Below are positions 9,166-59,946 of a stretch of 64,000 bases of DNA, piece after piece. The translations under genes were made by a program, and so were the position numbers. The stretch comes from Antedon bifida (Eukaryota; Echinodermata; Crinoidea; Comatulida; Antedonidae): assembly GCA_963402885.1 (NCBI GenBank), contig OY727093.1:20707409-20771408 (forward strand), read 5' to 3'. Under the pieces are notes generated by a model that saw nothing but the letters and a program-made list of their open reading frames with translations, ran no database searches and was not told the origin of the DNA. How positions within the stretch are numbered: the stretch's first letter is position 1; every line of letters starts with the position of its first letter.

Positions 9166-9170
9166 CTATT

Positions 9171-16305: not shown

Positions 16306-16441
16306 GTAATGAAAGGTGACAATAGTATAGCCTTATACGCGCTTCATATTACGTCATTCTAATCGTTACGTCATAAATTTGCATGTTCATGACGTAATTT
16401 TGAGGAAACGAATCTAGTTTTAACGTTGCTATAAACCAGAG

Positions 16442-16509
16442 GGCCGGATAGCTCAGTCGGTAGAGCGTCGTGGAACACGATTATCGTGGGTTCAAACCCC
16501 ATGCCGGTC
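16442..16509 (+). ncRNA. tRNA-Lys-like sequence, unit 1
   Basis: Acceptor GGCCGGA/GCCGGTC pairs with one G.U and one mismatch; D arm GCTC...GAGC and T arm GTGGG-TTCAAAC-CCCAT are intact, and both internal promoter boxes are good. The total is only 68 bases because the anticodon/variable part is 4-5 bases short and folds as TCGTG-GAA-CACGA. It resembles the start of tRNA-Lys but would not decode normally, so it is best read as a tRNA-derived repeat head. Confidence 0.5.
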
Positions 16510-17961: not shown

Positions 17962-18029
17962 GGCCGGATAGCTCAGTCGGTAGAGCGTCGTGGAACACGA
18001 TTATCGTGGGTTCAAACCCCATGCCGGTC
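17962..18029 (+). ncRNA. tRNA-Lys-like sequence, unit 2
   Basis: Identical duplicate of 16442-16509, 1520 bp downstream in the tandem array. Confidence 0.5.
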
Positions 18030-25460: not shown

Positions 25461-27421
25461 GGTTATCCGCACTTGGGGGATAACCCCTTGTTACTGTCAG
25501 GATCTTTTTTTTTTTTTTTTAGTTATCCGCACTTGGCGGATAACTCCTTGTTATTGTATGGGATCAATATTTTTTTTTTTCTGTATTATTCTTCTTTCTT
25601 TCTCGCTATTTTTGTGCAGCGCGTTTCTCTAAAATGTGTAAACATAACATTTCATAACTTTGACAACATGTGGACATTTACCTGAAGTTGGTCACCTCCT
25701 ATTTTTGAAAGACATCAGAGTTGCGTAACGTGACTTACGCGCAATTTTATCATATGGCCAGTTGAATAAAAAAAGTTGTATTTTCATATTTTGCGTAATA
25801 GTTCATCACATTTAAAAGGGTGCGCATCTATATTTTACGTATTCAAATTTCTTCTACACGTTAATATGTTGTTGGTGAGATAATGTCCTTCCGAAATTGC
25901 TATTTTAGTGTTTAATTTTAATACCGTCGCCATGTTAAAAATTGGAATAAACGGTGGGTCCCGTAATTTCACCTATTCTACACTGTATGTAGTATGTATA
26001 TACAGGTTATACTGTATATACTATATGACACAAAATAGACAGAATTCAGCACTAACAAGATATGATATTCTTCAGTTCAGGTCATAATGCCATAATCTTT
26101 TTCTGTGTGCAATATTCCAACATATGACGTGCATGTGGCGTTTGTCGTGCGGATAACTAACTCGTCAAGTGACGCGTTTCATTTTTTTTCTTTCTTATTC
26201 TTTCTTTCCCAGAATTTTGTTGCGCGTGTATCTCTAAATCTTCTCAACTTCTTATTGTATAACTTAATCAGAAGATTGACCTCTATCTGAAGATGTCGTA
26301 ATAAGGTTTTCGGTCCCGTCCGAGTTACGCAGCGTAAGTTATTTTATGAATTTCGCGTATTTAATTTAGATCAAAAACCATTAAACCATTTAAATTGAAA
26401 CTTGGCAAAAGTTTAATTTATATCATGCGCTAACTTTCTATGGAGAGAAAATGGCATGTTTCACAGATAGTTACGCGCGCACGCGCGTTTAAAATTTTAA
26501 AATGCGAAAAATCAATTTCTAATCAACTTTCTATGCGTTTCATGTCATTTTGAGCATGCCAAAAATTCCCACGCGCGCGCACATTTTTACGCGCACATAG
26601 CGTTAAAAACATACTTTTTTCGCCTGATTTATTTTCTAGTAATTTTACCAACTTTTAAACAATTTCGACTCAAAGTCACGTCATACGAGCACGTGGAATT
26701 GGATAATTTGCGCGAGTTTTTGATGAAAAAGTTCAAAAATTTGTCAAAATTATGCCTTTTTTTAAACAGTCATAGATTCTAAACTACAAGGTGAATTTTA
26801 TTGTTTATTACATATTCTGAAAGTAGATGAGTTGTAGATATCGAATCATGCATTGATATGGCTAACCCGATATTGTGACGTCATCGTATGGCCACTCGAA
26901 TATAAAATAGAAGATTTTTGTCTCTTTCGTCATAGCACATCACATTTAGTAGAGCTCATCTCTACTTATCCGTATTCTATTTCCTCCTATTTTTATATAA
27001 TATCTAGGTCAATCAATTATCTTTCGCATGATTTACCATTTTTAAATTTGTGATGACGTCATCATGTTCAAAAGCGTCAATAACTTTGGTCACTTATTTT
27101 CACCTATTCTGAACTGTATATAGTACGTATAAAGATTATACTGTATATACTGTAACGTCATTTGGTATAGCCCAAATCATTTATTTCCTACCTATTGCTA
27201 TAATGTAGCAGGCCAAATAAGACTAAGTACTGATTGGCTATTTTACTGTGTGTGTAATTTAATTACGCACTAACTTGTGGTAAACAATTTATTCAGGGAC
27301 CTAGTATAGTATAGTAATCATGATAATCTTTTTCTGTGTGCAATATTCTAAAGTATGACTTGCACGTGGCTTTTGGGCTGCGGATAACCTAACTCGTCCG
27401 TAGTGACGAGTTCAAATCTAG
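25461..27421 (+). mobile_element. Helentron-type copy B (G family), carries A0
   Basis: Head 25461-25485 (GGTTATCCGC...GGATAACC), motif CCTTGTTACTGT, T-tract, then A0 inserted, body from ~26183, inverted GCGGATAACC at 27380, hairpin 27391-27412 with a changed loop (CTCGTCCGTAGTGACGAG), CTAG 27418-27421. Without A0 it is ~1.3 kb. The head could instead belong to G00, because three tails but only two heads are present on this side. Confidence 0.65.
25521..26182 (+). mobile_element. Helentron-type copy A0 (A family), internally deleted
   Basis: Head 25521-25545 (AGTTATCCGC...GCGGATAACT), CCTTGTTATTGTATGGGATC, T-tract, body, inverted GCGGATAACT at 26150 and degraded hairpin 26159-26178 without CTAG. 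At 662 bp it is ~0.94 kb shorter than the other A copies. The loss is internal: the body jumps from GCGCAATTTTAT directly to ATATGGCCAGTTGAAT. Confidence 0.75.
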
Positions 27422-29985
27422 TTCTATCTTATTCTTCTTTCTTTCCCGGAATTTTGTTGGCAGCGTATCTCTAATTCTGGTCAACATAAGATTATATAAC
27501 TTTGTCATAAGATTGACCTGTAGCTGTAGATGTGCAAGAAACTTTGTTATATGACGTTAGACTCGCGCAGCGTAAGTTACGCGCGATTTTATGAATTTCA
27601 ATGATTGATCATAGATTATAAACCAAAAGTCATTTTGTATTGACACTTGGTAAAAATTCATATCAAGGGCAAACTTTCTATGGATTAAAAATGGCATGTT
27701 TCACAAGAAGTTACACGCGCACGCGCATTTAAAATTTCAAGTCATTTTAAGAAAGATTGACATCATTTCAAATTAAAATGACGTCATACGAACACGTTGA
27801 TTTAGACCGTTTGAGCGCGTTTTAGTTGAAAAAGTTATAAAATATTGTCAAAATAATGCCAATTTTGAATCTATTATAGCTCTTCAGGATCAAAGGTGAC
27901 CCCCAATTTTTTTAACTTATTATGTAGGAAGATAAATTGTAGATATGAATTCATGCAGAATTTTTACCTCTCGGATGTTATGACGTCATCGTATGGCCAC
28001 ACGAATGTAAAATATAGGATTTTTGTCTCTTTCGTTATTGCTCATCACATTCAACAGAGCGCATCTCGCTTATACGTATTCCATTTCCCCCGAGATTTTA
28101 ATAATGTCTACGTCAATCAATTATCTTTCGCATGAGTTAAAAATATTTTAATTTTTATGACATCATCATGTCTAAAAATGTAAATAACGTGGGTCACTTA
28201 TTTTTATCTTTACAGTAAATTTCAATCTGTTATAGCTCGTCAGAATAAAAAGTGGTAATCATGATTAAAACGTTTTCTGGAAGCTATTGGATTGTAGATA
28301 TGAATTCATGGGAATATTTTGCCAATCAGATGTTGTGACGTCATCATATGGCCAGTTGAATTCAAAAAGTCATATTTTCATCTCTTGCGTAAAAGTTCAT
28401 TGCGTTTAAACGAGAGCGCATCTCACTTTTACGTGCCCAAAATTCTTCAAATTTGTATTAATGTAATTAGATAACTAGAATTTAATTCGTCACTTTGACG
28501 AATTATAGGTGATCATTTTTATCATTTTACTGAAATAAATTTTTTTTAAACATGCACGTACGTTAACATACGATCGGAAAATGTTGATGTATGCCATCCT
28601 ATTATATGCTTATAGTGCTGAGTTGTGCCTATATGCCATATACAATATGTACAGTATATACTGTATATCTATATACAGTGTAGCATAGGTGAAATTACGG
28701 GACACACATGTTCTAATTTTTTGGCATGATGACGTTATCAAACTAAACTTTAAGATGACAATTTCGAAAGATAATTAATTGAGCAAAAAAATATAAGATT
28801 TGGAAAAAAATTTGGCACGTAGAAGCGCTGTGCGCGCTCTTTGAATTGTGTATAACTTTGACGAAAAATATGAAAAAACTACTTTTTCACTTCAACTGGC
28901 CATATGTTAACGTCACAACATCCGATAGGCTTAATTTTTATATGAATTAATATCTACATTTCATCAGCTTTCATAATAAATTATAATCATCAAGGTAACC
29001 TTCAATTCTGAAGAGCTGTAAGATATTCAAATTTACTGCGAAGGTGAAATTACACGGCCTACGTTATTCAAGTTTTTACGCGTGATGACGTCATTAAAAT
29101 GAAGATAGTGTCAACTCATGATAAAGATAATTAATTAAGCAAGCACATACTGAAAGTTGTGTGAAATTCGAGCACACATAACCAAGATGCGCTCTGTTGA
29201 ATGTGATAATCTACACAAAAAGATAACAAATCCTAATTTTTAAATTCAAGTGGCCATTTGATGACGTCAAAACATTTTGTACGTAAAATGTGTACATGAA
29301 TTCATATCTACAACTCAATGGCTTCCAGAATAAGTTAAAAAAGTCGGGGGTCATCTTGCATTCTGAAGAATTATTTTCATTTTAAAAAAGACCTATTTTT
29401 CACCATTTTCAGAACTTTTGTAAAATTAATGTGCGCACTTTGTCATTTTTAACGTGCTCGTATAGCGTTATTTTAAGTCAGAACTGACTCAAATTTGGTG
29501 AATGTACTAAGGATGGTGAGTAGAATGAGATTTGTAAAAAAAATTCATGTTTTTTACGCTTTTTAAGTATCGCGCGCGCAAAAACGCATTTTTGCGCAGT
29601 AATTTTTTGAAACACGCAAATGGCCTAATTCATGCTCTAAATTGATCAAAACTTAATTTTGAGCGTTTTAAATTTTTAACGCGCGATATCACGCGCATGA
29701 ACCTACGTGCGCGTGCGTTTTTATTTGCTAATATTTTTACCCTTGATCTGAAGTTTACGTGTAGTGAATTTCATTAATATGTGATAATGAATTATGGAGA
29801 TATGATTGATAATGTGATTTCGTAAAATGGCGTATAAATGTCGTCACGGATGAGTAATCACGCTGGAAAGCTTATTAGGATTAAGTTATATTATTTGAAA
29901 GATATTCTGAAATTTTTGTAATCATTGACATTAAACTTTTTGAGATAATTGTTACACAAAATAGTGTACAGAAACAATAAAAAGA

Positions 29986-32900
29986 CTAGACATGTAACTC
30001 GTCACTTTGACGAGTTTGGTTTTCCGCCGCGCAAGTGGTGCAACATGAACGTGTAACGACGTACCTTACCGTACCAAACATTAAGGGGATAGGTTGAGGA
30101 CAAAAGGAAGTGTCCACGTTGGCATTATGACCTGAACTGAAGAATATGATATGTTTTTATTGCTGAATTCTATTATTTTGATTCATATATAGTATACACA
30201 GTATAATCTGTATCCATATCACATACAGTGTAGAATAGGTGAAATTACGGGACCCGCTATTTATTGCAATTTTTAACATGGCGACGGCATCAAAATGAAA
30301 TACAAAGATAGCAATTTCGGAAGGATATTATCTCAGCAACAACATATTAACGTGCAAAAGAAATTTGAATACGTGAAATATTGATGCGCGCTCTTTTAAA
30401 TGCAATGAATTATGACGCAAAAGATGAAAATACGACTTTTTTCATTTAACTGGCCATATGATGACGTCACAACATCCGATTGGCAAAATTTTCACATGAT
30501 TTCGTATCTAAAATCCAATAGCTTCCAGAAAACGTTTTAATCGTGATTATCAAATTTTATTCTTACGAGCTATAACAGATTAAAATTTACTGTAAAGATG
30601 AAATTAATGCCACACGTAATTTAAATTTTTAGGAATGATGACATCAAAAAAATTAAAATATTTATAATTCATGCGAAAGACAGTTGATTGACCTAGACAA
30701 TATCAAAATTTGGGTGAAAATGGAAAACGGATAAGTGAATGCGCTCTATTAAATGTGATGAGCTATGACGAAAGATACAAAAATCCTAAATTTTATATTA
30801 GCGTGGCCATACGATGACGTCACAATGTCCGGTTAGCCATATTAATATATGATCCGATATCTACAACTCATTAACTTCCAGAAAATGTCATCCACAAAAA
30901 GTTGACCGTGCAGTTTAGAAATTACGACTGTTTAAAAAAAGGCATAATTTTGACAATTTGTTTAACTTTTTCAACAAAAACTCGCGCAAATTGTCCAATT
31001 CCACGTGCTCGTATGACGTTACTTTAAGTCGAAATTGTTTAAAAGTTGGTAAAATTACTAGAAAAGGCTGGAAAAACATAAATCACGCGAAAAAAATATG
31101 TTTTTAATGCTACGTGCGCACCGCACACGTAAAAATTTGCGCACGCGTGGGAATTTTTTACATGCTTAAAACGACATGAAACGCGTAGAAACTTGATTAG
31201 AAAATAATTTAGCGCATTTTGAAATTTTAAATGTGCGTGCGCGCGTAACTTTGTGTAAAACACGCAATTTTGGTTCGACAGAAAGTTAGCGCATGATATA
31301 AATTAAATTTGTGCAAAGTTTCAATATAAAATGTTATTTGGTTTTTGACCTATGTTAAATACGAGAAAATCGTTAAATCGCGCGTACGTCACGTTGCGCA
31401 ATTGTAAACATCATGAAAAGCTTCGCTTGACGACGTTACATAAATGTCAAAATGTTAACATAGTTCACAAAATGTTATGTTTGCAAGTTTCAGAGAAAAG
31501 CGATACACAAAAATCATACAGAAAGAAAGAAGATAAACTAGATTTGAACTCGTCACTTTGACGAGTTAGTTATCCGCACGACAAACGCCACGCGCACGTC
31601 ATACGTTGGAATTTTGCACACGGAAAAAGATTATGGCATTATGACCTGAACTGAAGAATATCATATGCTGTTAGTGCTGAATTCTGTCAATTTTGTGTCA
31701 TATAGTATATACAGTGCAAACGGTATAATCTGTATACATGTTACATACAGTGTAGAATAGGTGAAATTACGGGACCCCCCGTTTATTCTTATTTTTAACA
31801 TGGCGACGGTATCAAAATGAAACACTAAGATAGCAATTTCGGAAGTACATTATCTCAGCAACAACATGTTAACGTGTAGAAGAAATTTGAATACGTAAAA
31901 TGTAGATGCGCGCTCTTTTAAATGTGATGAACTATGACGCAAAAGATGAAAATACGACTTTTTTTATTCAACTGGCCATATAATGACGTCACAACATCGG
32001 ATTGGAAAAATGTTCACATGAATTCGTATCTACAATCCAATAGCTTCCAGAAAACGTTTTAATCATGATTATAGCTTTTTATTCTGACGAGCTATAACAG
32101 ATTGAAAGTTACTTTAAAGAAGAAAATAAGTGACCCACGTTATTTAAATTTTTTCAACATGATGACGTCATAGAATTAAAATATTTTTAACTCATACGAA
32201 AGATAGTTCATTTACCTACAAAATATCAAAATCGGGGTGAAATTGGAAAACGGATAAGTGAAGATGCGCTCAATTAAATGTGATACGCTAAGACGAAAGA
32301 TACAAAAATCCTATATTTTATATTCGCGTGGCCACACGATGACGTCACAATGTCCGGTTAGCCATATTAATGCATGATCCAATATCTACAACTCATCAAC
32401 TTCCAGAATACGTAATAAAAATAACTTTTACCGTTTAGTTTAGAAACTACGACTGTTTAAAAAAAGGTATAATTTTGACAAATTTTGACAAATTTTTGAA
32501 CTTTTTCATAAAAAACGCACGTAAGTTATCCAATTCAACGTGCCCGTATGACGTAATTTTAAGTAAAAAATGTTTAAAAGTTGGTAAAATTACTAGAAAA
32601 GGCTAAAAAAACATAAATCACGCGAAAAAAATTGTTTTCAATGCTACGTGCGCACCACGCGCGTAAAAATATGCGCGCGCGTGGGAATTTTTTACATGCT
32701 TAAAATGACATGAAACGCGTAGAAAGTTGATTAGAAATTGATTTTTCGCATTTTGAAATTTTAAACGCGCGTGCGCGCGTAACTTTGTGTGAAACATGCC
32801 ATTTTTTATTCACAGTCAATTAGCGCAAGATATAAATTAAACTTTTACTAAGTTTTAAATTCAAATGTTATATGGTTTTCGATTTATGTTAAATACGCGA

Positions 32901-33203
32901 AATTCGTTAAAACGCGCGTAAGTCATGTTGCGCAACTCTGACGTCATTCAAAAATAAAAAAGCACAACTTCACGTGAATGCCCACATGTTAACAAAGTTA
33001 TGAAATGTTAACTTTACAAGTTTTAGAGATACGCTCTGCACAAAAATGACAGAAAGAAAGAATAATACAGAAAAAAAAAAAAAAAAAAGATGAAACAGGA
33101 CAGTTCCAAGGAGTTATCCGCTGAATGCGGATAACTAATAAAAAGTTGATGATGGTTTCGTACAATCACAAGAGGTTTTCCTGCAACTTCGTTGCGGAAA
33201 ACC
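29986..33203 (-). mobile_element. Helentron-type copy F' (GGTTTTCCGC family), carries A'
   Basis: Head 33174-33203 (GGTTTTCCGCAACG...GGAAAACC), motif CTTGTGATTGTA, then A', body, inverted GCGGAAAACC at ~30018-30027, hairpin 29996-30016 and CTAG 29986-29989. Own length ~1.62 kb. It is the only member of this family in the window; its head and 3' inverted repeat share the T-to-C-type change that separates it from the GGTTATCCGC family. Confidence 0.8.
31538..33136 (-). mobile_element. Helentron-type copy A' (A family), innermost of the reverse nest
   Basis: Head 33112-33136 (AGTTATCCGCTGAATGCGGA...), body uninterrupted, inverted repeat 31568-31577, hairpin 31547-31567, CTAG 31538-31541. Length 1599 bp. 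Confidence 0.85.
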
Positions 33204-33297
33204 AAAAAAAAAAAAATAATAATAAAGATTTTATACAATAACAATAGGTGATCATTTTATTCTAAATGATCACCTAATTATCTTCTAAAATTGTTAT

Positions 33298-33408
33298 TTT
33301 TACTTCTTCTTCTTCTTCTTCGTATTTGGAGCCAACTTCATATGTGAAGACTCTGCTCCTCCAACTCTGTTTTGCTAGCTCTACTGTATTTGGTTGTGTA
33401 TTATTATT
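33298..33408. other. Unclassified spacer hosting the forward nests
   Basis: (CTT)n run then ATTTGGAGCCAACTTCATAT, not part of any Helentron-type body. Together with 39433-39490 and 43807-43911 it seems to be a ~280-bp host sequence split by two nests and itself lodged in G00. Confidence 0.5.
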
Positions 33409-33535
33409 AGTTATCCGCTTGGTAGAGCGGATAACTCCTTGTTATTGTATGGGATCAATATTTTTTTTCTGTATTATTAGTTATATCCGCTTAGTAGCGG
33501 ATAACTCCTTGTAATCGTCCTGTTTCAATTTTATT

Positions 33536-36364
33536 AGTTATCCGCACTATGGCGGATAACTCCTTGTAACTGTCCTGTTTCATCATCTTATTTTTTTTTT
33601 TTGGTTATCCGCAACCGTAAGGTTTTGCGGATAACCCTTGTTATTGTAAATATCTTTTTTTTTTTCATCTTCTTTGTTCTTCTTTCTTTCCCGGAATTTT
33701 GTTGCATGCATATCTGTCATCCTTGTCAACATAAGATTGTATAACTTTGTCAAATGATTGGCCTGCAGCTGTAGATGTGCAAGAAACTTCGTTATATGAC
33801 ATTAGAGTCGCGCAGCGTAAGTTACGCGCGATTTTATGAATTTCAATGATTGATCATAGATTATAAACCAAAAGTCATTTTGTTTTGACACTTAGTGAAA
33901 ATTTAAGTCATATCAAGGGCAAACTTTCTATGGATTAAAAATGACATGTTTCACAAGAAGTTACGTGCGCACGCGCATTTAAAATTTTAAAATGCGCAAA
34001 ATTAATTTATAATCAACTTTCTACGCTGATCATGACAATTGAAACATGTCAAAAATTCCCACGCGCGCGAAAAAAATTACGCGTAAGGTGCGCACGGAGC
34101 ATGAAAATCATGTGTTTTTTTCTTGAATTATGATTTTACAGCCTTTCTTAGTCATTTTAAAAAAGATTTACATCATTTCAAATTAAAATGACGTCATACG
34201 AACACGTTGATTTAGACAATTTGCGCGCGTTTTAGTTGCAAAAGTGACAACATATTGTCAAAAATAAGCCTATTTTTAATCTATTATAGCTCCTCAGGAT
34301 CATCCACGACCCCCAATTTTTTTAATTTAATATGTAAGCAGATATGTTGTAGATATGAATTCATGCAGAACCTTTACCACTCGGATGTTATGACGTCATC
34401 GTATGGCCACACGAATGTAAAATATAGGATTTTTTACTCTTTCGTTATTGCTCATCATATTAAATAGAGCGCATCTCACTTTTACGTGCCCAAAATTCTT
34501 CAAATTTGATTTAATGTAATTATTTAGATAATTATCTTCTAAAATTGTTATCTTTATATGTCAATTTGATGACGTCATCGTGTTAATAATTGGATTTAAA
34601 AGATGGGTCTCATAATTTTGTCTATGCTACACTGTATATAACATATACAGTTTATTCTGTAAAATACTGTAATATGATGTATGCTACATAATAGGTACAA
34701 TTCAGCACTGTAAACATATTTATTTCATGTCATAGGATGGCATAATAATTGTTGAGGTTCATATGGTTAAGTATGTGCATGTTGCGTTTGCGCGGATAAC
34801 CCGAACTCGTCAAAGTGACGAGTTCAAATCTAGTTTTCTGTATTATTCTTCTTTCTTTCTGTCATTTTTGTGCAGAGCGTATCTCTAAAACGTGTAAAGT
34901 TAACATTTTATAACTTTGTCAACATATGGGCAATCACGTGAAGTTGTGCTTTCCTATAAGTGAATGACGTCAGAGTTGCGCAACATGACTTACGCGCGTT
35001 TTTATGAATTTCGCGTATTTAACATAGATCGAAAACCATATAACAATTTAAATTGAAACTTAGCAAAAGTCTAATTTATATCGTGCGCTAACTTTTTGTG
35101 CACTAAAAATGGCATGTTTTACACGAAGTTACGCGCGCACACGCGTTTAAAATTTTACAATGCGAAAAATCAATTTCTAATCAACTTTCTACGCGTTTCA
35201 TGTCATTTTGAGCATGTCAAAAATTCCCACACATGCGCAAATTTTTACGCGCGTGGTGCACACGTAGCGTTAAAAACGTCATTTTTTCGAGTGATTTATG
35301 TTTTTCCAGCCTTTTCTAGTAATTTTACCAACTTTTAAACAATTTCGACTTTAAATTACGTCATACGAGCACGTAGAATATGATAATTTGCGCGCTTTTT
35401 TGATAAAAAACTTCAAAAATTCGTCAAAATTAAGCCTTTTTTTAAACAATCGTAGTTTTTAAACTAAACGGTAAAAATTATTTTTATTAAACATTCTGGA
35501 AGTTGATGAGTTGTAGATATCAGATCATGCATTAATTTGGCTAACTGGACATTGTGACGTCATCGTATGGCCACGCGAATATGAAATTTAGGATTTTTGT
35601 ATCTTTCGTCATAACTCCTCACATTTAATAGAGCGCATCTCCACTTATCCGTTTTCCATTTTCACCCCGATTTTGATATTGTCTAGGTCAATGAACTATC
35701 TTTAGCATGAGTTAAAAATATTTTAATTTTTATGACGTCATCATGCCTAAAAATTTAAGTTACGTGTGGCATTAATTTCATCTTTACAGTAAATTTCAAT
35801 CTGTTATAGCTCGTAAGAATAAAATGTGATAATCACGATTAAAACGTTTTCTTGAAGCTATTGGATTTTAGATACAAAATCATGTGAAAATTTTGCCAAT
35901 CGGATGTGGTGACGTCATCATATGGCCAGTTAAATAAAAAAAGTCGTATTTTCATATTTTACGTCATAGTTCATCACATTTAAAAGAGCGCGCATCTATA
36001 TTTTATGTATCCAAATTTCTTCTACACGCTAATATGTTGTTGCTGAGATAATATCCTTCCGAAATTATTATTTTAGTGTTTCATTTTGATACCGTCGCCA
36101 TGTTAAAAAATGGAATAAATGGCGGGTCCCATAATTTCACCTATTCCACACTGTATGTAATATGTATACAGATTATACTGTTTATACTGTACTGTACTAT
36201 ATGACACAAAATTGACAGAATTCAGCACTAACAACATATCATATTCTTCAGATCAGGTCATATGCCATAATTTTTTTCTGTGTGCAAAATTCTAACGTAT
36301 GACGTGCACGTGGCGTTTGTCGTGCGGATAACTAACTCGTCAAAGTGACGAGTTTCATGTCTAG
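33536..36364 (+). mobile_element. Helentron-type copy A3 (A family)
   Basis: Head 33536-33561, motif CCTTGTAACTGT, G1 inserted in the T-tract, body resumes 34834, hairpin 36334-36354, CTAG 36361-36364. Own length 1598 bp. Confidence 0.85.
33603..34833 (+). mobile_element. Helentron-type copy G1 (G family), innermost
   Basis: Head 33603-33636 (GGTTATCCGCAACC...GCGGATAACC), motif CTTGTTATTGTA, uninterrupted body, inverted GCGGATAACC at 34792, hairpin 34804-34824, CTAG 34830-34833. Length 1231 bp. Confidence 0.88.
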
Positions 36365-39300
36365 TATTATTCTTCTGTCTTTCTCCCTCACTTTTTGTGC
36401 AGAGCGTATCTCTAAAATGGGTAAACATAACATTTCATAACTTTGTCAACATATGGGCATTTACGTGAAGTTGTGCACCTCCTATTTTTGAATGACGTCA
36501 GAGTTGCGCAACGTGACTTACGCGCGATTTTATGATTTTTTATGATTGATCATAGCTTAAAAACCAAGCCTAATTTTTTTTTTACCCTTTATGAAAATTT
36601 AAGTCATATCAAGGGCAAACTTTTAGTTAACTAAAAATGGCGTGTTTTACAAGAAGTTACGCGCGCATGCGCATTTAAAATTTTAAAATGCGCAAAATTA
36701 ATTTCTAATCAACTTTTTACGCCATTCATGACATTTTGCTCATGTCAAAATTTCCCGCGCGCGCGAACAATTTTACGCGTGCAGTGCGCACGCAGCATGA
36801 AAATCATGTTTTTTTCTATTAAATTGTGATTTTCCAGCCTTTCCTAGTCATTTTTAAAAAGATTGACATAATTTCAAATTAAAATGACGTCATACGTACA
36901 CGTTGATTTAGACCATTTGCATGCGTTTTAGTTGCAAAAGTTACAAAATATTGTCAAAATTATGCCTATTTTGAATCTATTATAGCTCCTCAGGATCAAC
37001 CGTTACCCCCGAGTTTTTTAACTTAATATGTAAGCAGATATGTTGTAGATATGAATTCATGCAGAATTTTTTCCTTACGGATGTTGTGACGTCATCGTAT
37101 GGCCACACAAATGTAAAAAATAGGATTTTTGTCTCTTTCGTTATTGCTCATCACATTCAATGGAGCGCATCACGCTTATCCGTCTTCCATTTTCTCCGAG
37201 ATTTTAATATTATCTAGGTCAATCAATTTTCTTTCGCATGAGTTAAAAATATTTTAATTTTTATAACGTCATCATGCCTAAAAATTTAAATTATGTGGGT
37301 CATTAATTTTATCTTTACAGTAAATTTTAATCTGTTATAGCTCGTAAGAATAAAATGTGATAATCACGATTAAAACGTTTTCTAGAAGCTATTGGATTGT
37401 AGATACGAATTCATGTGAACATTTTGTCAATCAGATGTTGTGACGTCATCATATGACAAGTTTAATTAAAAAGGTCAAATTTTCATATTTTGCGTAATAG
37501 TTCATCACATTTAAAAGGGTGCGCATCTATATTTTATGTATTCAAATTTCTTCTACACGTTAATATGTTGTTCCTGAGATAATTTCCTTCTGAAATTGCT
37601 ATCCAAGTGTTTCATTTTGATACCGTCGCCATGTTAAAAATTGGAATAAATGGCGGGTCCCGTAATTTCACCTATTCTACACTGTATGTAATATGTATAC
37701 AGATTATACTGTTTGCATGTATATGCTATATGACACAAAATTGACAGAATTCAGCACTAACAGCATATCATATTCTTCAGTTCTTGTCATAATGCCATAA
37801 TCTTTATCTGTGTGCAATATTCCAACGTATGATGTGAACGTGGCGTTTGTCGTGGTGCGGATAACTAACTCGTCAAAGTGACGAGTTTCATGTCTAGTTC
37901 TTGTTTCCTTCCTTCCTTTTTGTGAGTCGCGTTTCTCTAAAATGTGTAAACATAACATTTCATAACTTTGACAACATATGGGCATTTACGTGAAGTTGTG
38001 CACCTCCTATTTTTGAATGACGTCATAGTTGCGCAACGTGACTTACGCGCAATTTTATGAATTTCAATTGATTGATTGATTGATTATAGATTAAAAACCA
38101 AAAGTCATTTAGTATTGACACTTTGACAAAATTTAAGTCATCATATCAGGGGCAAACTTTCTACGGATTAAAAATGGCATGTTTCACAAGAAGTTACGCG
38201 CGCACGCGCATTTAAAATTTCAAAATGCGCAAAATTAATTTCTAATCAACTTTTTATGCGTTTCTTGTCATTTTGAGCATGTCAAAAATTCCCACGGGCG
38301 CGCAATTTTTTACGCACGCGGTGCGCACGTAGCGTTAAAAACATATTTTTTTCTCTTGAATTATATTTTTCAAGTCTTTCCTAGTAATTTTGAAAACAAT
38401 TTAGACCTTTTCCAGTTTAAATAACGCCATACGAACACGTTGAATAAGACAATTCGTGCGCGTTTTTTATGAAAAAGCTTAAAAAATCGTCAAAATTATG
38501 TCTTTTTTTAAACAGTCATAGTTTCTAAAGTAAACTGTGAACCGTTTATTTTTATTACAAAATCTAGAAGTTGATGAGTTGTAGATATCGGATCATGCAT
38601 CGATAAGGCTAAAAAAACATTGTGACGTCATCGTATGGCCACACGAATGTAAAATATAGGATTTTTGTCTCTTTCGTTATTGCTCATCACATTCAATGGA
38701 GCGCATCACGCTTATCTGTATTCCTTTTTCTCCTAAATTTATATATTGTGTAGGTCAATCAACTTTCTTTAGCATGAGATAAAAATATTTTAATTTTTAT
38801 GACGTCATCATGCCTAAAAATTTTAATTATGTGGGTCATTAATTTCATCTTTACAGTAAATTTTAATCTGTAATAGCTCGTAAGAATAAAATGTGATAAT
38901 CACGATTAAAACGTTTTCTGGAAGCTATTGGATTGTAGATACGAATTCATGTAAACATTTTGCCAATCGGATGTTGTGACGTCATCATATGGCCAGTTGA
39001 ATAAAAAAAGTCGTATTTTCATATTTTGCGTAATAGTTCATCACATTTAAAAGGGTGCGCATCTATATTTTACGTATTCAAATTTCTTCTACACGTTAAT
39101 ATGTTGTTCCTGAGATAATTTCCTTCAGAAATTGCTATTTAAGTGTTTCATTTTGATACCGTCGCCATGTTAAAAATTGGAATAAATGGCGGCTCCCGTA
39201 ATTTCACCTATTCTACACTGTATGTAATATGTATACAGATTATACTGTTTGCATGTATATACTATATGACACAAATTGACAGAATTCAGCACTAACAGCA

Positions 39301-39558
39301 TATCATATTCTTCAGTTCTTGTCATAATGCCATAATCTTTATCTGTGTGCAATATTCCAACGTATGACGTGCACGTGGCGTTTGTCGTTGTGCGGATAAC
39401 TAACTCGTCAAAGTGAGGAGTTTCATGTCTAGTTCTATTTAGTTATTCTTTTACAGAGAGAAACTGACTCCCTTATTTATTTATAATTATTAGGTGATCA
39501 TTTAGAATAAAATGATCACCTATTGTTATTGTATAAAATCTTTATTATTTTTTTTTTT

Positions 39559-40779
39559 GGTTATCCGCAACTTAGTTGCAGGATAACCCTTGTGATTGTA
39601 AATATCTTTTTTCATCTTCTTTGTTATTCTTCTTTCTTTCCCGGATTTTTGTGACCAGCATATCTCTATTGCTTGTGAACATAACTTTGTATAACTTGGT
39701 AAAAAGATTGACATTGAAGTGTAGATGTGCAGCTAAGCTTTTGGACGATGTCAGAGCCGCGTTGCGTAAGTTACGCGCGATTTTATGATTTTCTATAACT
39801 GATCATAACTGTAGAACCAACAAATATTCTTTCATGAAACTTAGTGAAAATTTAAGTCATATCAAGGACAAACTTTCTATGGATTAAAAATGGCACGTTT
39901 CACAAGACGTTACGCGCGCACGCGCATTTAAAATTTCAAAATGCGCAAAATTAATTTCTAATCAACTTTCTACGCTGATCATGACATTTTGAGCATGTCA
40001 AAAATTCCCACGCGCGCGAAAAAAATTACGCGTAAGGTGCGCACGGAGCATGAAAATCATGTGTTTTCTCTTGATTTATAATTTTACAGTCTTTCCTATT
40101 TATTTTGAAAAAGATTGACATCATTTCAAATTAAAATGACGTCATACGAACAGGTTGATTTAGACCATTTGCGCGCGTTTTAGTTGCAAAAGTGACAAAA
40201 TATTGTCAAAATTATGCCTATTTTTAATCTATTATAGCTCCTCAGGATCATCCATGACCCCCATTTTTTTAATTTAATATGTAAGCAGATATGTTGTAGA
40301 TATGAATTCATGCAGAATCTTTACCCCTCGGATGTTATGACGTCATCGTATGGCCACACGAATGTAAAATATAGGATTTTTTACTCTTTCGTTATTGCTC
40401 ATCACATTAAATAGAGCGCATCTCACTTTTACGTGCCCAAAATTCTTCAAATTTGTTTTAACGTAATTATTTAGATAATTATCTGCTAAAATTGTTATCG
40501 TTATATGCCAATTTGATGACGTCATCGTGTTAATAATTGGATTTAAAAGATGGGTCTCGTAATTCCGTCTATGCTACTCTGTATATAACATACAGTGTAT
40601 TCTGTAAACACTGTAATATGCTGTATGCTACAAAATAGGTACAATTCAGCACTGTAAACATTCGTAATTCATGTCATAGGATGGCATAATAATTGTCGAA
40701 GTTCATATAGTTTAAAGTATGTGCATGTTGCGTTTGCGCGGATAACCCGAACTCGTCAAAGTGACGAGTTCAAATCTAG
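39559..40779 (+). mobile_element. Helentron-type copy G2 (G family)
   Basis: Head 39559-39588, CTTGTGATTGTA, body as G1, CTAG 40776-40779. Length 1221 bp. Confidence 0.85.
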
Positions 40780-40786
40780 TTATTTT

Positions 40787-42305
40787 TAGGTGATCATTTA
40801 GAATAAAATGATCACCTATTGTTATTGTATCAAATCTTTATTCTTCTTCTTATTCTTATTATTTATTTCTCTCTGTACAAATTTGTGTAACAATTATCTC
40901 AAAAAGTTAAATGTCAATGATCACAAATTTTTCACAATGTCTTTTAAATACTTTAACTTAACCATAATAAGCTTTTCAGTGTGATCACTCAACCGTGACG
41001 TCATAAATACGCGATTTTGTGAAATCACACTATCAATCATATCTCCATAACTCTTTATCACATATCAATCAAATTCACTACACGTAAACTTCAGGTCAAG
41101 GGTAAAAATATAAGCAAATAAAAACTTGCATGTTTCAAGGTCATGCATGTGAAATTGCGCGTTAAAAATTTAAAAAGCTTGAAATTAAGTTTTGATCAAT
41201 TTAGAGCATGAATTAGGCCATTTGCGTGTTTAAAAAAATTACTGCGCAAAAACACGTTTTTGCGCGCGCTATACTTAAAAAGCGTAAACAATACAATTTT
41301 TTTGTACAAATCGCATTCTACCCACCATCCGTAGTACATTCACCAAATTTGAGTCCGTTCCGACTTAAAATAACGCTATACGAGCAGGTGAAAAATAGGC
41401 CTTTTTTAAAAATGAAAATAACTCTTCAGAATGCAAGATGACCCCCAGTTTTTTTAACTTATTCTGGAAGCCATTGAGTTGTAGATATGAATTCATGTAC
41501 ATTTCACGTACAAAATGTTGTGGCGTCATCAAATGGCCACTTGAATTTAAAAATTAGGTTTTTTTCTCTTTCGTCATAGATTATCACATTCAAAAGTGCG
41601 CATCTCGGTTATTTTGTGCCCGATTTTCGCTCAAATTTTAGTATATGATTGCTCAATTAATTATCTTTCTCTTAAGTTGTCAACATTTTAATTTTAATCA
41701 CGTCATCACGCGTAAAAACTCGAATAACGTAGGTCGTGTAATTTCACCTTCAGCGTATATTTGAACATCTCACAGCTCTTCAGAGTTAAAGGTGAACATG
41801 ATGATTATAATTTGTTATGAAAGCTGATGAAATGTAGATATGAATTCATATAAAAAATAAGCCAATCAGATATTTTGATGTTATCATATGGCCAGTTGAA
41901 GTTAAAAAGTAGTTTTTAAATTTCTTTAGTCAAAGTTATACACATTTCAAAGAGCGCGCATTGCGCTTCTACGTCCCACATTCTCTTCCAATTCTTATAT
42001 TTATTTGCTCAATTCATTATCTTTCGAAATTGTCAACTTCAAGTTTATTTTGATAATTCCATCATACCAAAAAATTAGAACATGATATGTGTCCCGTAAT
42101 TTCACCTATGCTACACTGTATATTAGATATACAGTATATACTGTACATATTGTATATGGCATATAATAGGCACAACTCAGCACTATAATAGGATGACATT
42201 TTCCGATCGTATGTTAACGTACGTGCATGTTTAAAAAAAATTAATTTCAATAAAATTATAAAAATGATCACCTATAATTCGTCAAAGTGACGAATTAAAT
42301 TCTAG
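40787..42305 (+). mobile_element. Helentron-type copy R2 (R family)
   Basis: Head 40787-40818, ATTGTTATTGTATC, body, inverted ATGATCACCTA, hairpin, CTAG 42302-42305. Length 1519 bp. Separated from G2 by only seven bases of R1's T-tract. Confidence 0.85.
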
Positions 42306-43806
42306 TTTTTCTTTTTATTGTTTCTGTACACTATTTTGTGTAACAATTATCTCAAAAAGTTTAATGTCAATGAGAATATCTTTCAAATAATATAACTTAA
42401 TCCTAATAAGCTTTCCAGCCTGATCACTCATCCGTGACGACATTTATACGCCATTTTGCGAAATCACATTATCAATCATATCTCCATAATTCATTATCAC
42501 ATATTACTGAAATTCACTACACGTAAACTTCAGATCAAGGGTAAAAATATTAGCAAATAAAAACGCACGCGCACGTAGGTTCATGCGCGTGATATCGCGC
42601 GTTAAAAATTTAAAACGCTCAAAATTAAGTTTTGATCAATTTAGAGCATGAATTAGGCCATTTGCATGTTTCAAAAAATTACTGCGCAAAAATGCGTTTT
42701 TGCGCGCGCAAAACTTAAAAAGCGTAAAAAATATGAATTTTTTTTACAAATCTCATTCTACTCACCATCCTTAGTACATTCACCAAATTTGAGTCAGTTC
42801 CGACTTAAAATAACGCTATACGAGCACGTTAAAAATGACAAAATGCGCACATTAATTTTACAAAAGTTCTGAAAATGGTGAAAAATAGGTCTTTTTTAAA
42901 ATGAAAATAATTCTTCAGAATGCAAGATGACCCCCGATTTTTTTAACTTATTCTGGAAGCCATTGAGTTGTAGATATGAATTCATGTACACATTTTACGT
43001 ACAAAATGTTTTGACGTCATCAAATGGCCACTTGAATTTAAAAATTAGGATTTGTTATCTTTTTGTGTAGATTATCACATTCAACAGAGCGCATCTTGGT
43101 TATGTGTGCTCGAATTTCGCACAACTTTCAGTATGTGCTTGCTTAATTAATTATCTTTATCATGAGTTGACACTATCTTCATTTTAATGACGTCATCACG
43201 CGTAAAAACTTGAATAACGTAGGCCGTGTAATTTCACCTTCGCAGTAAATTTGAATATCTTACAGCTCTTCAGAATTGAAGGTTACCTTGATGATTATAA
43301 TTTATTATGAAAGCTGATGAAATGTAGATATTAATTCATATAAAAATTAAGCCTATCGGATGTTGTGACGTTAACATATGGCCAGTTGAAGTGAAAAAGT
43401 AGTTTTTTCATATTTTTCGTCAAAGTTATACACAATTCAAAGAGCGCGCACAGCGCTTCTACGTGCCAAATTTTTTTCCAAATCTTATATTTTTTTGCTC
43501 AATTAATTATCTTTCGAAATTGTCATCTTAAAGTTTAGTTTGATAACGTCATCATGCCAAAAAATTAGAACATGTGTGTCCCGTAATTTCACCTATGCTA
43601 CACTGTATATAGATATACAGTATATACTGTACATATTGTATATGGCATATAGGCACAACTCAGCACTATAAGCATATAATAGGATGGCATACATCAACAT
43701 TTTCCGATCGTATGTTAACGTACGTGCATGTTTAAAAAAAATTTATTTCAGTAAAATGATAAAAATGATCACCTATAATTCGTCAAAGTGACGAATTAAA
43801 TTCTAG

Positions 43807-43818
43807 TTATTATTATTA

Positions 43819-43853
<35 letters not shown>

Positions 43854-43911
43854 TTTTTTTTTTTTTTCCCTTACTTCTCCTTTCACTTTTCTTTCTCTCT
43901 TTTCTTCTTCT
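43807..43911. repeat. (TTA)n / poly-T / pyrimidine-rich simple sequence
   Basis: About 50 bp of ATT repeats, a poly-T run and CT-rich DNA before the last piece of G00. Confidence 0.8.
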
Positions 43912-44366
43912 TTTTATATGTCAATTTGATGACGTAATCGTGTTAATAATTGGATTTAAAAGATGGGTCTTTTTTTCGTCTTATAATTTATATGTTATAT
44001 ACAGTGTATTCTGTAAATACTGTAATGTGATGTATGCTACAAAATAGGTACAATTCAGCACTGTAAACATATTTATTTCATGTCATAGGATGGCATAATA
44101 ATTGTCGAGGTTCATATAGTTTAAAGTATGTGCATGTTGCGTTTGCGCGGATAACCAGAACTCGTCAAAGTGACGAGTTCAAATCTAGTTCATTTTGTTA
44201 TTACATGACGATAATAATTATTATTGCTAATTCTATAAGATATAAAATACATGGTAATATTTTCTGTTCTTGCCACATCCCTCTTCTATGATTCTACTCT
44301 TTTTTTTAAAGTACGAAAGCCTAACGAATTTTAAAATAATAATCGACTTCCGCCGGAAGAATATTT

Positions 44367-45022
44367 ATTAAACAGAATACCATCACTGACAGAAGGGCGT
44401 GTCGGATTACTGGAATGACAGTAGCCAATTCTATGGTTTCATTAAAAAAGGACCAACAAAATATCAACCAAAGAATATAGTTGCATTAAGTTTTATTCAT
44501 TTTTAAATGTTATAGTGTACAAAAAGAATTTCTGATTTTATTTGACCAAATAAATGCTGTGAGAGCAGTTGACTGAGTAACAAAAGCGTTATTTATTTTG
44601 AAATGTTATAGTGATTTATTTGACCAAATAAATGCATCGGTAGCGCCTCACAGTTGACCGCTGAATACCATATAATACACAATAGACACGGACGAACACG
44701 TTCGTTTCGTTACTGTTATGAAGATCGAACGCATTCGTTTCTGGAATTGCGACGGCGAGAAATTCACTTTTAACTTTAATTTTATCAGTTTCTGAAAGAA
44801 TTAAGCCTTGGAATTTGTAATATACCATTAATAATACATTCCAAACAGGTGGCTGCTCTCTGGTGATAGGATTTAGGTATCTGGTGGTGTTTAGTAGGAC
44901 CGGTCGTGATAAAATCAAAATCCTGTCTTTTGTATGGAGTGCCACTAGATACGCTTTTTAGCATATTTGTTACATTTGATATCAGTCGTGTTTTATTTTG
45001 GTCGCGCTAATTTGTATGGGGT
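44367..45022. repeat. Right arm of the large inverted repeat (partner 22902-23668)
   Basis: Inner end ATTAAACAGAATACCATCAC, then TTTGACCAAATAAATGC twice, GAATTGCGACGGCGAGAAAT, GGTGGTGTTTAGTAGG, GGTCGTGATAAAATC and outer end GGTCGCGCTAATTTGTATGG. Blocks are in the exact inverse order of the left arm with moderate divergence. The Helentron-type nest sits close to this arm. Confidence 0.8.
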
Positions 45023-48972: not shown

Positions 48973-51300
48973 TAATAATAATAATAATAATAAATGCTTT
49001 ATTTCAACACGGAGAACTTGATCACCAAAAGGTGTTTTTCGTCAAGGCTGTGCAAGGCCATAAATTATTCTTAAAATTAACAACAAAGGTATATACAGTG
49101 TGGTATAAAAACCATAGAGAAAATTTTCCCATGATAAAAACATAAAAACAATTTTAACATACTGTAAGCTACAGTACACAATACATTCAAGCAAGTAATA
49201 ATAATTCGATTTAAAATAAAAAGGATTAATGAATGAACAAAATTTATAAAAAAGAAAAACAATTTGAATGAACAGAATTTATAAAAAAGAAAAACAATTT
49301 AAAACTAGAATTTAATTCGTCACTTTGACGAATTATAGGTAATCATTTTTATAATTTTATTGACATTAATATTAATAAACATGCACGTACAATCGGAAAA
49401 TGTTGATGTATGCCATCCTATTATACGCTTATAGTGCTGAGTTTTGCCTATTTATATGCCATATACATTATGTACAGTATATACTGTACATCTATATACA
49501 GTGTAGCATTGGTGAAATTACGGACACACATCATGATCTAACTTTTTGGTACTGATGACATTATGAAAATAAACTTGTGGATACCAATATCGAAAGATAA
49601 TGAATTGAGCAATAAAATATAACAATTGGAAGAAAATTTGGCACGTAGAAGCGCGGTGAGCGCCTTTTGAAATTTGTATAACTTTGACGAAAGAGATGAA
49701 AAAACTACTTTTTTGCTTCAACTGGCCATATGATAACTTCATAACATTCGATAGGCTTAATTTGTATATGCATTCATATCTACATTTCACCAGCTCTCAT
49801 AATAAGTTATAAACATCAAGGTCAACTTTAATTCAGAAGAGCTGTAAGGAATTCAACTATACGTTGTAGGTGAAATTACGTAACCACCGTTATTCAAATT
49901 TTAAGACGTGATGACGTCATCGAAATGAAAATATTGGCAACTCATGAGTAACATCATTGGTTGAGGTAGAATATATTTAAAATAAAAAAAAAATCGAGCA
50001 CAGATAAGCGAGTTACGCTCTGTTGAATATGGTGGTCTATGACAAAATGGGAAAAAACCCTATTTTAAAATTCATGTGGCCAAATGATGACGTCATACCA
50101 TTTTGTATGTCTAATGGGTATATACATTTATATCTACAACTCATTAACTTCCATAATAAGTTTAAAAAAATGGGGTCATCTTCCATTCTGAAGAGTTATA
50201 TTCATTTTAAAAAGGCCTTATTTTTTACCATTTTTAGCACTTTTGTACAATTAATGTGCGCATTTTGTCATTTTGAACGTGCTCGTATAGCGTTATTTTA
50301 AGTCGGAATGGACTCAAATTTAGTGAATGTACTAAGTAAGATGACTAGGATGCAATTTGTACAAAAAATTGGTATTTTTTAAGCTTTCTATGTATGCACG
50401 CGCAAAAACGTGTTTTTGCGCAGTAATTTTTAAAAACATGCAAATGGCCTAATTTATGCTCTAAATTGATCAAAACGTAATTTTGAGCTTTTTAAATTTT
50501 TAACGCGCGATTTCACGCGAATGACCTTGAAACGCGCAAGTTTTTATTTACTAATATTTTTACCTTTACCTGAAGTTTACGTGTAGTAAATTTCATTAAT
50601 ATGTGATAATGAATTATGGAAATATGATTCATAATGTGATTTCACAAAATGGCGTATAAATGACGTCACGGTTGAGTGATCACGCTGAAAAGCTTATTAT
50701 GACTAAGTTACAGTATTTGAAAGACATTGTGAAATTTTGGTAATCATTGACATTTAACTTTTTGAGATATTTGTTACACAAAAAGTGTACAGAAAGAATA
50801 AAAAAAAAAAATAAATAAATAAATAAAGATTTCATACAATAACAATAGGTGATCATTTTATTCTAAATGATCACCTAATTAAAAGATGCAAATTCAAGTA
50901 CTGTATAATATAAAAAAGATACATCATAAAACATAGACATTAACCTGCCTACAAGTCTTGTGCATTTAAATTAAAATATGCTCTTTGAATTTAGCAAGAC
51001 TTGTCATATTTCTAGATTCTATGTTTAGGTTATTCCATAACTTAGGTTAAACTCCTTTTTTTGTATTCAGTTTTTGGTTTTTCAACATATAATGGATCCT
51101 TTGATCTTGTGTTATATTGGGATCTCTTAAGGTAAATCTGTTTCCAAGATATGAAAATCTTAAACATAGTAATAGTTTCATTGTAAGAAAGTTTTGATTC
51201 AAGGTTCATCCATTTAAGATCCTGCAGGGCTTGAGAACTAGAGTCGTAACATGATTTTCGTAATATAATTTTTGCTGCTCTATTTTTGAGAACTTGCAAT
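48973..51300 (-). mobile_element. LINE 3' end inserted in the Gypsy element, split by R3
   Basis: Coding part 51299-50960: LKNRAAKIILRKSCYDSSSQ, WMNLESKLSYNETITMFKI, YNTRSKDPLYVEKPKTEY, then after a frame change KLWNNLNIESRN and a stop; all standard LINE C-terminal blocks. The 3' untranslated region continues left of the Helentron-type copy (49304-48973) and ends in an AATAAAGCATTT signal plus (ATT)n tail at 48973-48996. RT is missing (5' truncation). Gypsy sequence resumes on both sides. Confidence 0.75.
49305..50877 (-). mobile_element. Helentron-type copy R3 (R family), solo
   Basis: Head 50846-50877, body uninterrupted, inverted repeat with one mismatch (AGGTAATCAT at 49337), hairpin 49314-49334, CTAG 49305-49308. 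Length 1573 bp. It lies in the LINE 3' untranslated region, flanked by A on both sides (T/T on its own strand). Confidence 0.85.
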
Positions 51301-57784: not shown

Positions 57785-59946
57785 ACTAGAGGGTACTCCG
57801 AGAGTACAAACCTCCGCCTACTGTAAAATTCCCCTACATAAAATGCCCCCTGAATATTTTTAGGTGATCATTTAGAATAAAATGATCACCTATTGTTATT
57901 GTATAAAATCTTTATTATTATTTTTTTTTTTATTATTTTTTTTCTTTTTATTGTTTCTGTACACTATTTTGTGTAACAATTATCTCAAAAAGTTTAATGT
58001 CAATGATTACAAAAATTTCAGAATATCTTTCAAATAATACAACTTAATCCTAATAAGCTTTCCAGCGTGATCACTCATCCGTGACGACATTTATACGCCA
58101 TTTTGCGAAATCACATTATCAATCATATCTCCATAATTCATTATCACATATTAATGAAATTCACTACACGTAAACTTCAGATCAAGGGTAAAAATATTAG
58201 CAAATAAAAACGCACGCGCACGTAGGTTCATGCGCGTGATATCGCGCGTTAAAAATTTAAAAAGCTCAAAATTAAGTTTTGATCAATTTAGAGCATGAAT
58301 TAGGCCATTTGCGTGTTTCAAAAAATTACTGCGCAAAAATGCGTTTTTGCGCGCGCGATACTTAAAAAGCGTAAAAAATATGAATTTTTTTTACAAATCT
58401 CATTCTACTCACCATCCTTAGTACATTCACCAAATTTGAGTCAGTTCCGACTTAAAATAACGCTATACGAGCACGTTAAAAATGACAAAATGCGCACATT
58501 TATTTTACAAAAGTTCTGAAAATGGTGAAAAATAGGTCTTTTTTAAAATGAAAATAATTCTTCAGAATGCAAGATGACCCCCGATTTTTTTAACTTATTC
58601 TGGAAGCCATTGACTTGTAGATATGAATTCATGTACACATTTTACGTACAAAATGTTTTGACGTCATCAAATGGCCACTTGAATTTAAAAATTAGGATTT
58701 GTTATCTTTTTGTGTAGATTATCACATTCAACAGAGCGCATCTTGGTTATGTGTGCTCGAATTTCGCACAACTTTCAGTATGTGCTTGCTTAATTAATTA
58801 TCTTTATCATGAGTTGACACTATCTTCATTTTAATGACGTCATCACGCGTAAAAACTTGAATAACGTAGGCCGTGTAATTTCACCTTCGCAGTAAATTTG
58901 AATATCTTACAGCTCTTCAGAATTGAAGGTTACCTTGATGATTATAATTTATTATGAAAGCTGATGAAATGTAGATATTTATTCATATAAAAATTAAGCC
59001 TATCGGATGTTGTGACGTTAACATATGGCCAGTTGAAGTGAAAAAGTAGTTTTTTCATATTTTTCGTCAAAGTTATACACAATTCAAAGAGCGCGCACAG
59101 CGCTTCTACGTGCCAAATTGTTTTCCAAATCTTATATTTTTTTGCTCAATTAATTATCTTTCGAAATTGTCATCTTAAAGTTTAGTTTGATAACGTCATC
59201 ATGCCAAAAAATTAGAACATGTGTCCCGCAATTTCACCTATGCTACACTGTATATAGATATACAGTATATACTGTACATATTGTATATGGCATATAGGCA
59301 CAACTCAGCACTATAAGCATATAATAGGATGGCATACATCAACATTTTCCGATCGTATGTTAACGTACGTGCATGTTTAAAAAAAAATTAATTTCAGTAA
59401 AATGATAAAAATGATCACCTATAATTCGTCAAAGTGACGAATTAAATTCTAGTTTTAAAAATTGTTTTTATTAGTTCTAAGTGTAAATATGCTAACTGCA
59501 CACTACAAAGTTGTGGATGACAGTGTGGTGTAATGGTTATGTATCCAGCCTCTCACAGTTGAGATCGCTGGTTCAAGTCCCACTGAGGTTTTTTTTTTGT
59601 TATTATTTTTTTATTTCTTTTTTTTTTGTTTTTTGTGGACCTTGATCTTTGACCACAAATATATGATGTGTCATTGATCATTGTGGCTAAGTTTGGTGAG
59701 AATCGGATAAAAACTGTGGTCTCTTAGGCAGTAAAATAGTTTTTTGTTAGTTGTGACCTTGACCTATATGACCTTTTCCCCTCAAATTCAAACTCATCCG
59801 AGCTTTTTGATCATAGATCATTGTTGCCAAATTTGGTGAGAATCGGATAAAAACTGTGGCCTCCAGGCTGTTCACAGACACACAAACACACACACACACA
59901 CAAACATACAGGGGTGAAAACATAACCTCCTTGGCGGAGGTAATAA
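57785..59946 (+). mobile_element. SINE-like element, copy 3, split by R4
   Basis: 5' part 57785-57860 (CTAGAGGGTACTCCGAGAGTA), then the Helentron-type insertion, then 59453-59946. The tRNA-like part at 59519-59585 keeps both boxes: TGGTGTAATGG and GGTTCAAGTCC, with CTCTCAC in the anticodon loop, most like tRNA-Glu. Ends in a CA microsatellite and CCTTGGCGGAGGTAATAA, whose GGCGGAGG is the inverse of CCTCCGCC at the 5' end. Confidence 0.75.
57861..59452 (+). mobile_element. Helentron-type copy R4 (R family), clean solo insertion
   Basis: Head 57861-57892, ATTGTTATTGTAT, T-tract, body, ATGATCACCTA at 59411, hairpin 59422-59442, CTAG 59449-59452. Length 1592 bp. The interrupted SINE reads GAATATTTTT before and TTTTAAAAATTG after; the unsplit SINE has TATTTTTAAATTTT, so the ends and a T/T target are defined. 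Closest in sequence to R1 over the whole body. Confidence 0.9.

Follow-up and report, generated by a model that had tools for sequence, protein, structure and literature searches.

A branched nest of non-coding, Helentron-like elements in the genome of the crinoid Antedon bifida

The window analysed here is a stretch of 64,000 nucleotides from Antedon bifida (GenBank assembly GCA_963402885.1, contig OY727093.1, here C1), corresponding to C1:20707409-20771408 of a 315.6-Mb genome. Within it, the segment 25461-44188 arose as Helentron-like (HINE-type) elements, all non-coding and belonging to four end-families, inserted one after another into copies already present, and nesting as such is near certain. 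The original prediction, made from the letters of this DNA, described a stack of 13 Helentron-type elements. Our analysis upheld the nesting and the 13 tails (one of them, near 26180, is degenerate and lacks CTAG), but it found 12 heads, so that one outer head is missing, and a branched tree five elements deep. A chain of 13 nested copies was rejected because the brackets formed by heads and tails branch: the copy R_2 stands beside G_b, and R > F > A form a separate reverse branch (copies are named as in Table 1).

Nested copies in the window

Repeated heads, which are palindromes, and tails, which are a hairpin plus CTAG, fill the segment. The heads define the four end-families, A (AGTTATCCGC), G (GGTTATCCGC), F (GGTTTTCCGC) and R (TAGGTGATCATTT); the copies begin with AGTT, GGTT or (T)AGGT, and the sequence 3' of the heads is similar to TTGTTATTGTA. 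The tails have in common, with few changes, the core CGTCAAAGTGACGA, followed by CTAG and then T, and the tail signature of the families is the core TCGTCAAAGTGACGA plus CTAG. Tails were scored as hairpin-plus-CTAG sites with a score of at least 8 as the cut-off for comparison with chance, which gave 24 sites in the window against 1, 2, 0, 1 and 0 in five Markov-shuffled windows; some of these sites, near 19.8 and 21.1 kb, are CTAG palindromes with no relation to the elements. No stop-to-stop frame of at least 120 amino acids starts in 25461-44188, and the segment thus has no coding capacity.

All ten head/tail pairs named in the original prediction are present within 1-2 bases, and excising the inner copies reproduced its lengths (four A, two G and R copies of ~1.52-1.59 kb) with 1605, 1590, 1598 and 1599 bp for A, 1231 and 1221 bp for G and 1576, 1584 and 1519 bp for R. 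It also expected the excised bodies to be alignable over their whole length and each head to match its tail in family, and both hold, as judged by the bodies, the subterminal repeats, the landing pads and relatives elsewhere. R_1 and R_r are 98.9% and 99.1% identical, end to end, to the uninterrupted copy R_solo and 99.2% identical to each other; A_3 and A_r agree at 90.0% and G_a and G_b at 90.3%. Full-length relatives with 98-99% identity to A_1, A_2, A_r and F_r were found at other fetched loci, whereas divergence is 10-20% between most copies of the stack and 14-18% between neighbouring copies in the window. Most copies landed in a T-rich pad 3' of the palindromic head of their host, and the rejoined pads of A_3, A_1, R_1 and R_r resemble the intact pads of A_r, A_25521 and R_solo; for A_2 and F_r the window has no intact reference pad.

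The left pads and the bodies independently identify the same reference copies. The left pieces at 33409 and 33536 correspond to A_25521 and A_r, respectively (Table 1). The body at 34834-36364 is nearest to A_r (1373/1519, against 1272/1500 and 1310/1505 for the others), and that at 37898-39432 is nearest to A_25521 by identity, with 145/156 in its first part, where 36365-36531 has a slightly higher alignment score, and 407/431 in its last part. Each head also shares an exact inverted repeat with its own tail, of 10-13 bases in nine of ten pairs and of 7 in the tenth (A_2), and random re-pairing of the ten tails did equally well in 44 of 200,000 trials. This test is blind to A versus G, the A,A,A,G part scoring 39 in mirror order and 38 in serial order, and we dropped the subterminal repeats alone as proof of the A/G order, which is taken instead from the agreement of bodies and landing sites.

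Because the G_out pieces 27422-28474, 33277-33303 and 43910-44188 rejoin in register with G_a and G_b, the interval 28475-43909 lies inside one G-type element. G_out encloses the minus-strand branch R_r > F_r > A_r and, via a segment of ~266 bp with pyrimidine-rich edges that we call X, the plus-strand branches A_1 > A_2 > A_3 > G_a and R_1 > (G_b, R_2), with 7-8 bases between G_b and R_2; H > A_25521 is the left edge of the nest. The deepest chain, G_out > A_1 > A_2 > A_3 > G_a, has six levels if X is counted. Private substitutions in ~1,575 bases are few (6 in R_1, 7 in R_r and 9 in R_solo), which indicates that the R insertions are recent and that those of G_b, R_2, F_r and A_r are later still. 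The close relatives of A_r (best match in the fetched loci 99.2%), F_r (98.6%) and G_b (97-98%, with 39 of 3,137 candidates scored) are in line with recent later insertions.

Nesting and landing sites across the genome

A strict tail pattern has 4,126 exact matches in the genome and its reversed control has 0. Among the first 100 tails, which reach to 14.17 Mb on C1, 13 clusters account for 46, and there are 28 same-strand neighbours less than 2 kb apart against 0.7 expected. We fetched all 13 clusters and 21 of the 54 single tails, finding a head for 15 of the 20 single tails examined, and added three stacks on other contigs that had been noticed earlier and are therefore not a random choice. 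In the parsed multi-copy loci, the window included, nested (last-in-first-out) pairing is family-matched in 64 of 66 pairs and serial (first-in-first-out) pairing in 43 of 66, and when tail labels were shuffled within loci, the matched pairs averaged 41.5 and never exceeded 52 in 2,000 trials. The genome head scanner missed the head at 33479, which reads TATATCC instead of TATCC, and for this reason the plus strand of the window scored only 8 of 9 pairs with 3 tails unmatched.

The pattern is clearest in a stack of ~20 kb at C1:9945600-9967600, which parses as R(R F(R(F(A) A(A F)) A A(G))), with 12 heads and 12 tails, all family-balanced, and excised lengths of 1571-1634. Hosts rejoined at other loci match R_solo at 1580/1591 and 1572/1585 (L017 and L027), 91.6% (L026) and 87.4% (L028). 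Among 1,327 exact R heads there are 306 direct R-head/R-head joins (control 0), and 301 R heads follow a tail with exactly TT between (control 0), compared with 96 joins that have 5-29 bases between. Among the matches listed, long runs in which the tail of one R copy meets the head of the next across TT or a short gap extend over tens of kb (C7:32745650-32847692, C7:12514358-12618467 and C15:7473803-7603718) and are possibly satellite-like blocks. Ladders of R heads 55-75 bases apart, in which a 55-base spacing recurs, were seen at C1:19291223-19291571 and C1:20891701-20892046 and may represent copies with several heads that transpose as single units.

In closed hosts, all 33 inner copies on the host's own strand stand 55-128 bases behind the host head (32 at no more than 115), and head-to-head spacing is 55-83 bases in 35 of 38. 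Only 22% of the TTATT sites and 19% of the TTTTT sites in an element fall within the pad, and for landing against the TTATT share the binomial p is ~4e-20. Because 115 of the 119 sites with at least 13 T of 16 in 12 window elements are inside the pad, the landing place within an element can be explained by T density. Genome-wide, T density seems insufficient: pads make up 0.17% of comparable TTATT sites and 0.4-4.9% of comparable T-rich sites (4.9% at 15 of 16 T) in a 67.5-kb background sample, yet nested copies number 30 among the 61 elements parsed on C1. T density as the whole explanation was therefore rejected, since it fits the position within an element and not the genome-wide share of nested copies.

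A second favoured place is the tail end, the tail-to-head gap being exactly TT in 9 of 17 cases. TT precedes the head in 72 of 72 parsed elements and follows the tail in 65 of 72, a TTATT flank is present at 21 of 34 outermost copies, and CTAGTT stands immediately before the head in 8 of 72. The T runs at joins vary in length, and one or two duplicated T would look like none.

Classification and origin of the nest

The Helentron-type label of the original prediction fits the structure, which includes subterminal inverted repeats at both ends, the 5' one palindromic, a 3' stem-loop, TT insertion in T-rich DNA and non-autonomous copies without coding capacity. The genome also encodes a protein of this type, a candidate partner whose ends the families described here may share. 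Canonical Helitrons have 5'-TC and 3'-CTRR ends, the latter with a hairpin ~10-11 bases upstream, and insert between A and T; our elements resemble them in the CTRR-type 3' end (CTAG) with a hairpin ~10 bases from it, and differ in having neither 5'-TC nor A/T insertion. A canonical Helitron was thus rejected by the 5' end and the target. Satellite arrays carry head, body and tail serially in each unit, which is not the arrangement seen here.

Helitron_like_N (PF14214) occurs at 39 places in the genome, 38 of them above the cut-off and many in frames of 2,000-3,182 amino acids. One frame that we examined joins Helitron_like_N, a PIF1 helicase and an Exo_endo_phos endonuclease, and Rep/helicase plus endonuclease in one protein is the Helentron combination according to the available part of Thomas et al. 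2014 (PMC4067079). No heads or tails of our families were found in the protein loci L049-L058, where the stretches read stop short of the element ends. Ten frames of the window gave reverse transcriptase, GIY-YIG and WD40 domains in Pfam and no Helitron protein. A decayed Helitron_like_N fragment lies at C1:20664824-20665279, ~42 kb upstream of the window start.

As far as the accessible text of the same paper (PMC4067079) goes, HINEs/DINE-1 are non-autonomous Helentrons, which our elements resemble in the palindromic subterminal inverted repeats at both ends, the hairpin near the 3' end, the T-rich target with TT on both sides, the variable number of T, the 5' microsatellite and the non-coding body; they differ in the CTAG end and in recursive nesting at a fixed place. 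In the parts of PMC5148889 available, the Helitron2-like FoHeli of Fusarium oxysporum likewise shows self-insertion and multiple 5' termini tens of bases apart, and one case of three tandem copies in Metarhizium is explained as two 5'-end insertions or as rolling-circle replication; the cases there are few and shallow, in contrast to the hundreds of joins and the balanced 12-copy, four-family stack found here. Cg_HINE of the Pacific oyster shares the subterminal inverted repeats, 5' inverted repeat, microsatellite, 3' palindrome and T-rich TT sites, without target duplication, but has central satellite-like repeats, and the word 'nested' is absent from the text of PMC7492417; nested transposons in general are treated, in its available part, by PMC12628747. 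Our search of the open-access literature found no report of such depth or regularity and none in which copies land at a fixed site behind the head, and a text search with the 15-base hairpin core gave no match, the papers returned being off-topic by title. Self-insertion and multiple 5' ends are therefore already published, and the depth and regularity are new among the open-access literature searched.

We consider it highly probable that HINE-type elements inserted successively into their own heads, and we infer a partner protein and targeting of resident ends as follows. A Rep-helicase-endonuclease of the kind encoded in the genome would move all four families by rolling-circle transposition. 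Its favoured sites would be the ends of resident copies, that is, the TTATT/T-run pad behind heads and the TT after CTAG tails, and the protein probably binds or opens DNA there, a targeting mechanism that we offer as a proposal only. Because a head and a pad arrive with every new copy, recursion is possible; heads then accumulate at one side, and at the other stand bodies that have tails but no heads, as in nested brackets. We give about even odds to the stronger idea that the machinery homes to resident ends and integrates at heads that are bound or nicked and at tails that have been cleaved, which would give a self-renewing landing site, bracket arrays made by insertion only and perhaps satellite-like blocks of tens of kb.

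A preference for T-rich targets, without attraction to resident copies, is possible but rather doubtful as an alternative. It would account for the T-rich flanks, the TT before every parsed head and the TTATT at outermost copies, and T density does predict the pad within an element; the small share of pads among equally T-rich and TTATT sites, set against the nested share on C1, and the elements that follow CTAGTT exactly, which is not a TTATT site, argue otherwise, with the caveats that the background sample is small and that copies inserted into existing elements may have a better chance of survival. Tandem duplication or rolling-circle concatemers, with serial repeat units and the head ladder as a separate short tandem repeat, are very unlikely here, although bodies recur at ~1.53 kb, exact tail-TT-head joins outnumber spaced ones and often stand in long same-strand runs such as the first C7 run above, and certain neighbours with a gap of 2 are 99% alike. 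Other neighbours with that gap belong to different families (R-A, A-F) or are only 90.6-97% alike, bodies after the first have no heads, last-in-first-out pairing wins over first-in-first-out, and adjacent window copies diverge while distant relatives are nearly identical. The original prediction held that a simple tandem array could not give such agreement, and the excised bodies, rejoined pads and family pairing bear this out; a tandem origin is contradicted for the window and may apply to part of the serial joins elsewhere.

In the Fusarium model (PMC5148889, in the part available), composites of several heads and one tail move as a unit. Ladders of 3-6 R heads with a 55-base spacing recurring at several places would suit such composites, as would the unmatched heads in multi-copy loci, for example five stacked heads in L026, but each of the ten stacked or paired window heads has a family-matched tail, as have 12 of 12 in the 12-copy stack; this contradicts such an origin for the window, and we give it little credence. 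That the nest is an assembly artefact seems exceedingly improbable: such repeats do assemble poorly, and the comparison uses the assembly only, but most stacked copies are well diverged and brackets in the same order are seen at other loci, which lie on several contigs.

Several observations weigh against self-insertion as set out above. Of 2,683 candidate relatives of R_2, 35 were scored and the nearest of these is only 95% identical, which fits poorly with a recent insertion given that the host R_1 matches other copies at ~99%. X is unexplained, with no second copy found in the one comparison made within the window, and R_r is placed in the body of G_out, on the opposite strand, and not in its pad. 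In the multi-copy loci, 12 heads and 5 tails are unmatched. An autonomous copy bearing the ends of these families does not appear among the sequences analysed. Special targeting is not required to explain why copies concentrate in the pad inside an element; it is required only for the genome-wide excess, which is estimated against the 67.5-kb background.

The integration sites of rolling-circle transposons, and the path from Helitron-like elements to tandem satellite-like arrays, are poorly understood, and the exact tails together with hundreds of dated, typed junctions make both questions measurable. Each bracket yields the order of two insertions, shows where the later one landed and can be compared with an intact copy that is nearly identical. 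Stacking would also, if self-targeting is real, spare genes and explain copies with several 5' ends.

Map of the nest and neighbouring repeats

Table 1. Features of the nest and uninterrupted control copies in the window
Feature	Coordinates	Strand	Remarks
G-type head + left half of landing pad, of H or of outermost G copy	25461..25520	+	
A_25521: A-type, internal deletion (junction ~25749/25750), tail without CTAG	25521..26185	+	intact pad, control for A_1
H body + tail (G/A mosaic)	26186..27421	+	host of A_25521
G_out piece 1: headless body of outermost G-type copy	27422..28474	+	
R_r body + tail	28475..29985	-	tail end at 28475
F_r body + tail	29986..31537	-	tail end at 29986
A_r: complete, 1599 bp	31538..33136	-	innermost in reverse branch
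F_r head + left pad	33137..33203	-	
R_r head + left pad	33204..33276	-	
G_out piece 2 (27 bp)	33277..33303	+	
X piece 1	33304..33408	not assigned	single copy in window
A_1 head + left pad	33409..33478	+	40/40 aligned bases identical to A_25521 pad
A_2 head + left pad	33479..33535	+	
A_3 head + left pad	33536..33602	+	38/42 aligned bases to A_r
G_a: complete, 1231 bp	33603..34833	+	innermost in forward A branch
A_3 body + tail	34834..36364	+	
A_2 body + tail	36365..37897	+	
A_1 body + tail	37898..39432	+	
X piece 2	39433..39490	not assigned	
R_1 head + left pad	39491..39558	+	
G_b: complete, 1221 bp	39559..40779	+	within R_1 pad
7 bp of R_1 pad	40780..40786	+	separates two side-by-side inserts
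R_2: complete, 1519 bp	40787..42305	+	within R_1 pad
R_1 body + tail	42306..43806	+	
X piece 3	43807..43909	not assigned	opens with (TTA)n microsatellite
G_out piece 3	43910..44188	+	carries tail
R_solo2: uninterrupted R copy	49305..50877	-	outside stack (control)
R_solo: uninterrupted R copy	57861..59452	+	outside stack (control)

G_out (27422-28474) and A_2 (36365-37897) are mosaics of G-like and A-like stretches, which points to recombination between families or to template switching between them. The stack is flanked by inverted repeat copies at 22936-23668 and 44365-44898 that are 82-90% identical, and an A-like element fragment at 53969-54455 has a degenerate tail hairpin and CTAG. Farther from the nest, 9162-9888 and 10046-10774 form an inverted repeat with 98.9% identity, and a frame there has a GIY-YIG domain, a domain present in Penelope-like elements. 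Finally, a tandem repeat at 15836-19415 has a period of ~1.5 kb and 95% identity.

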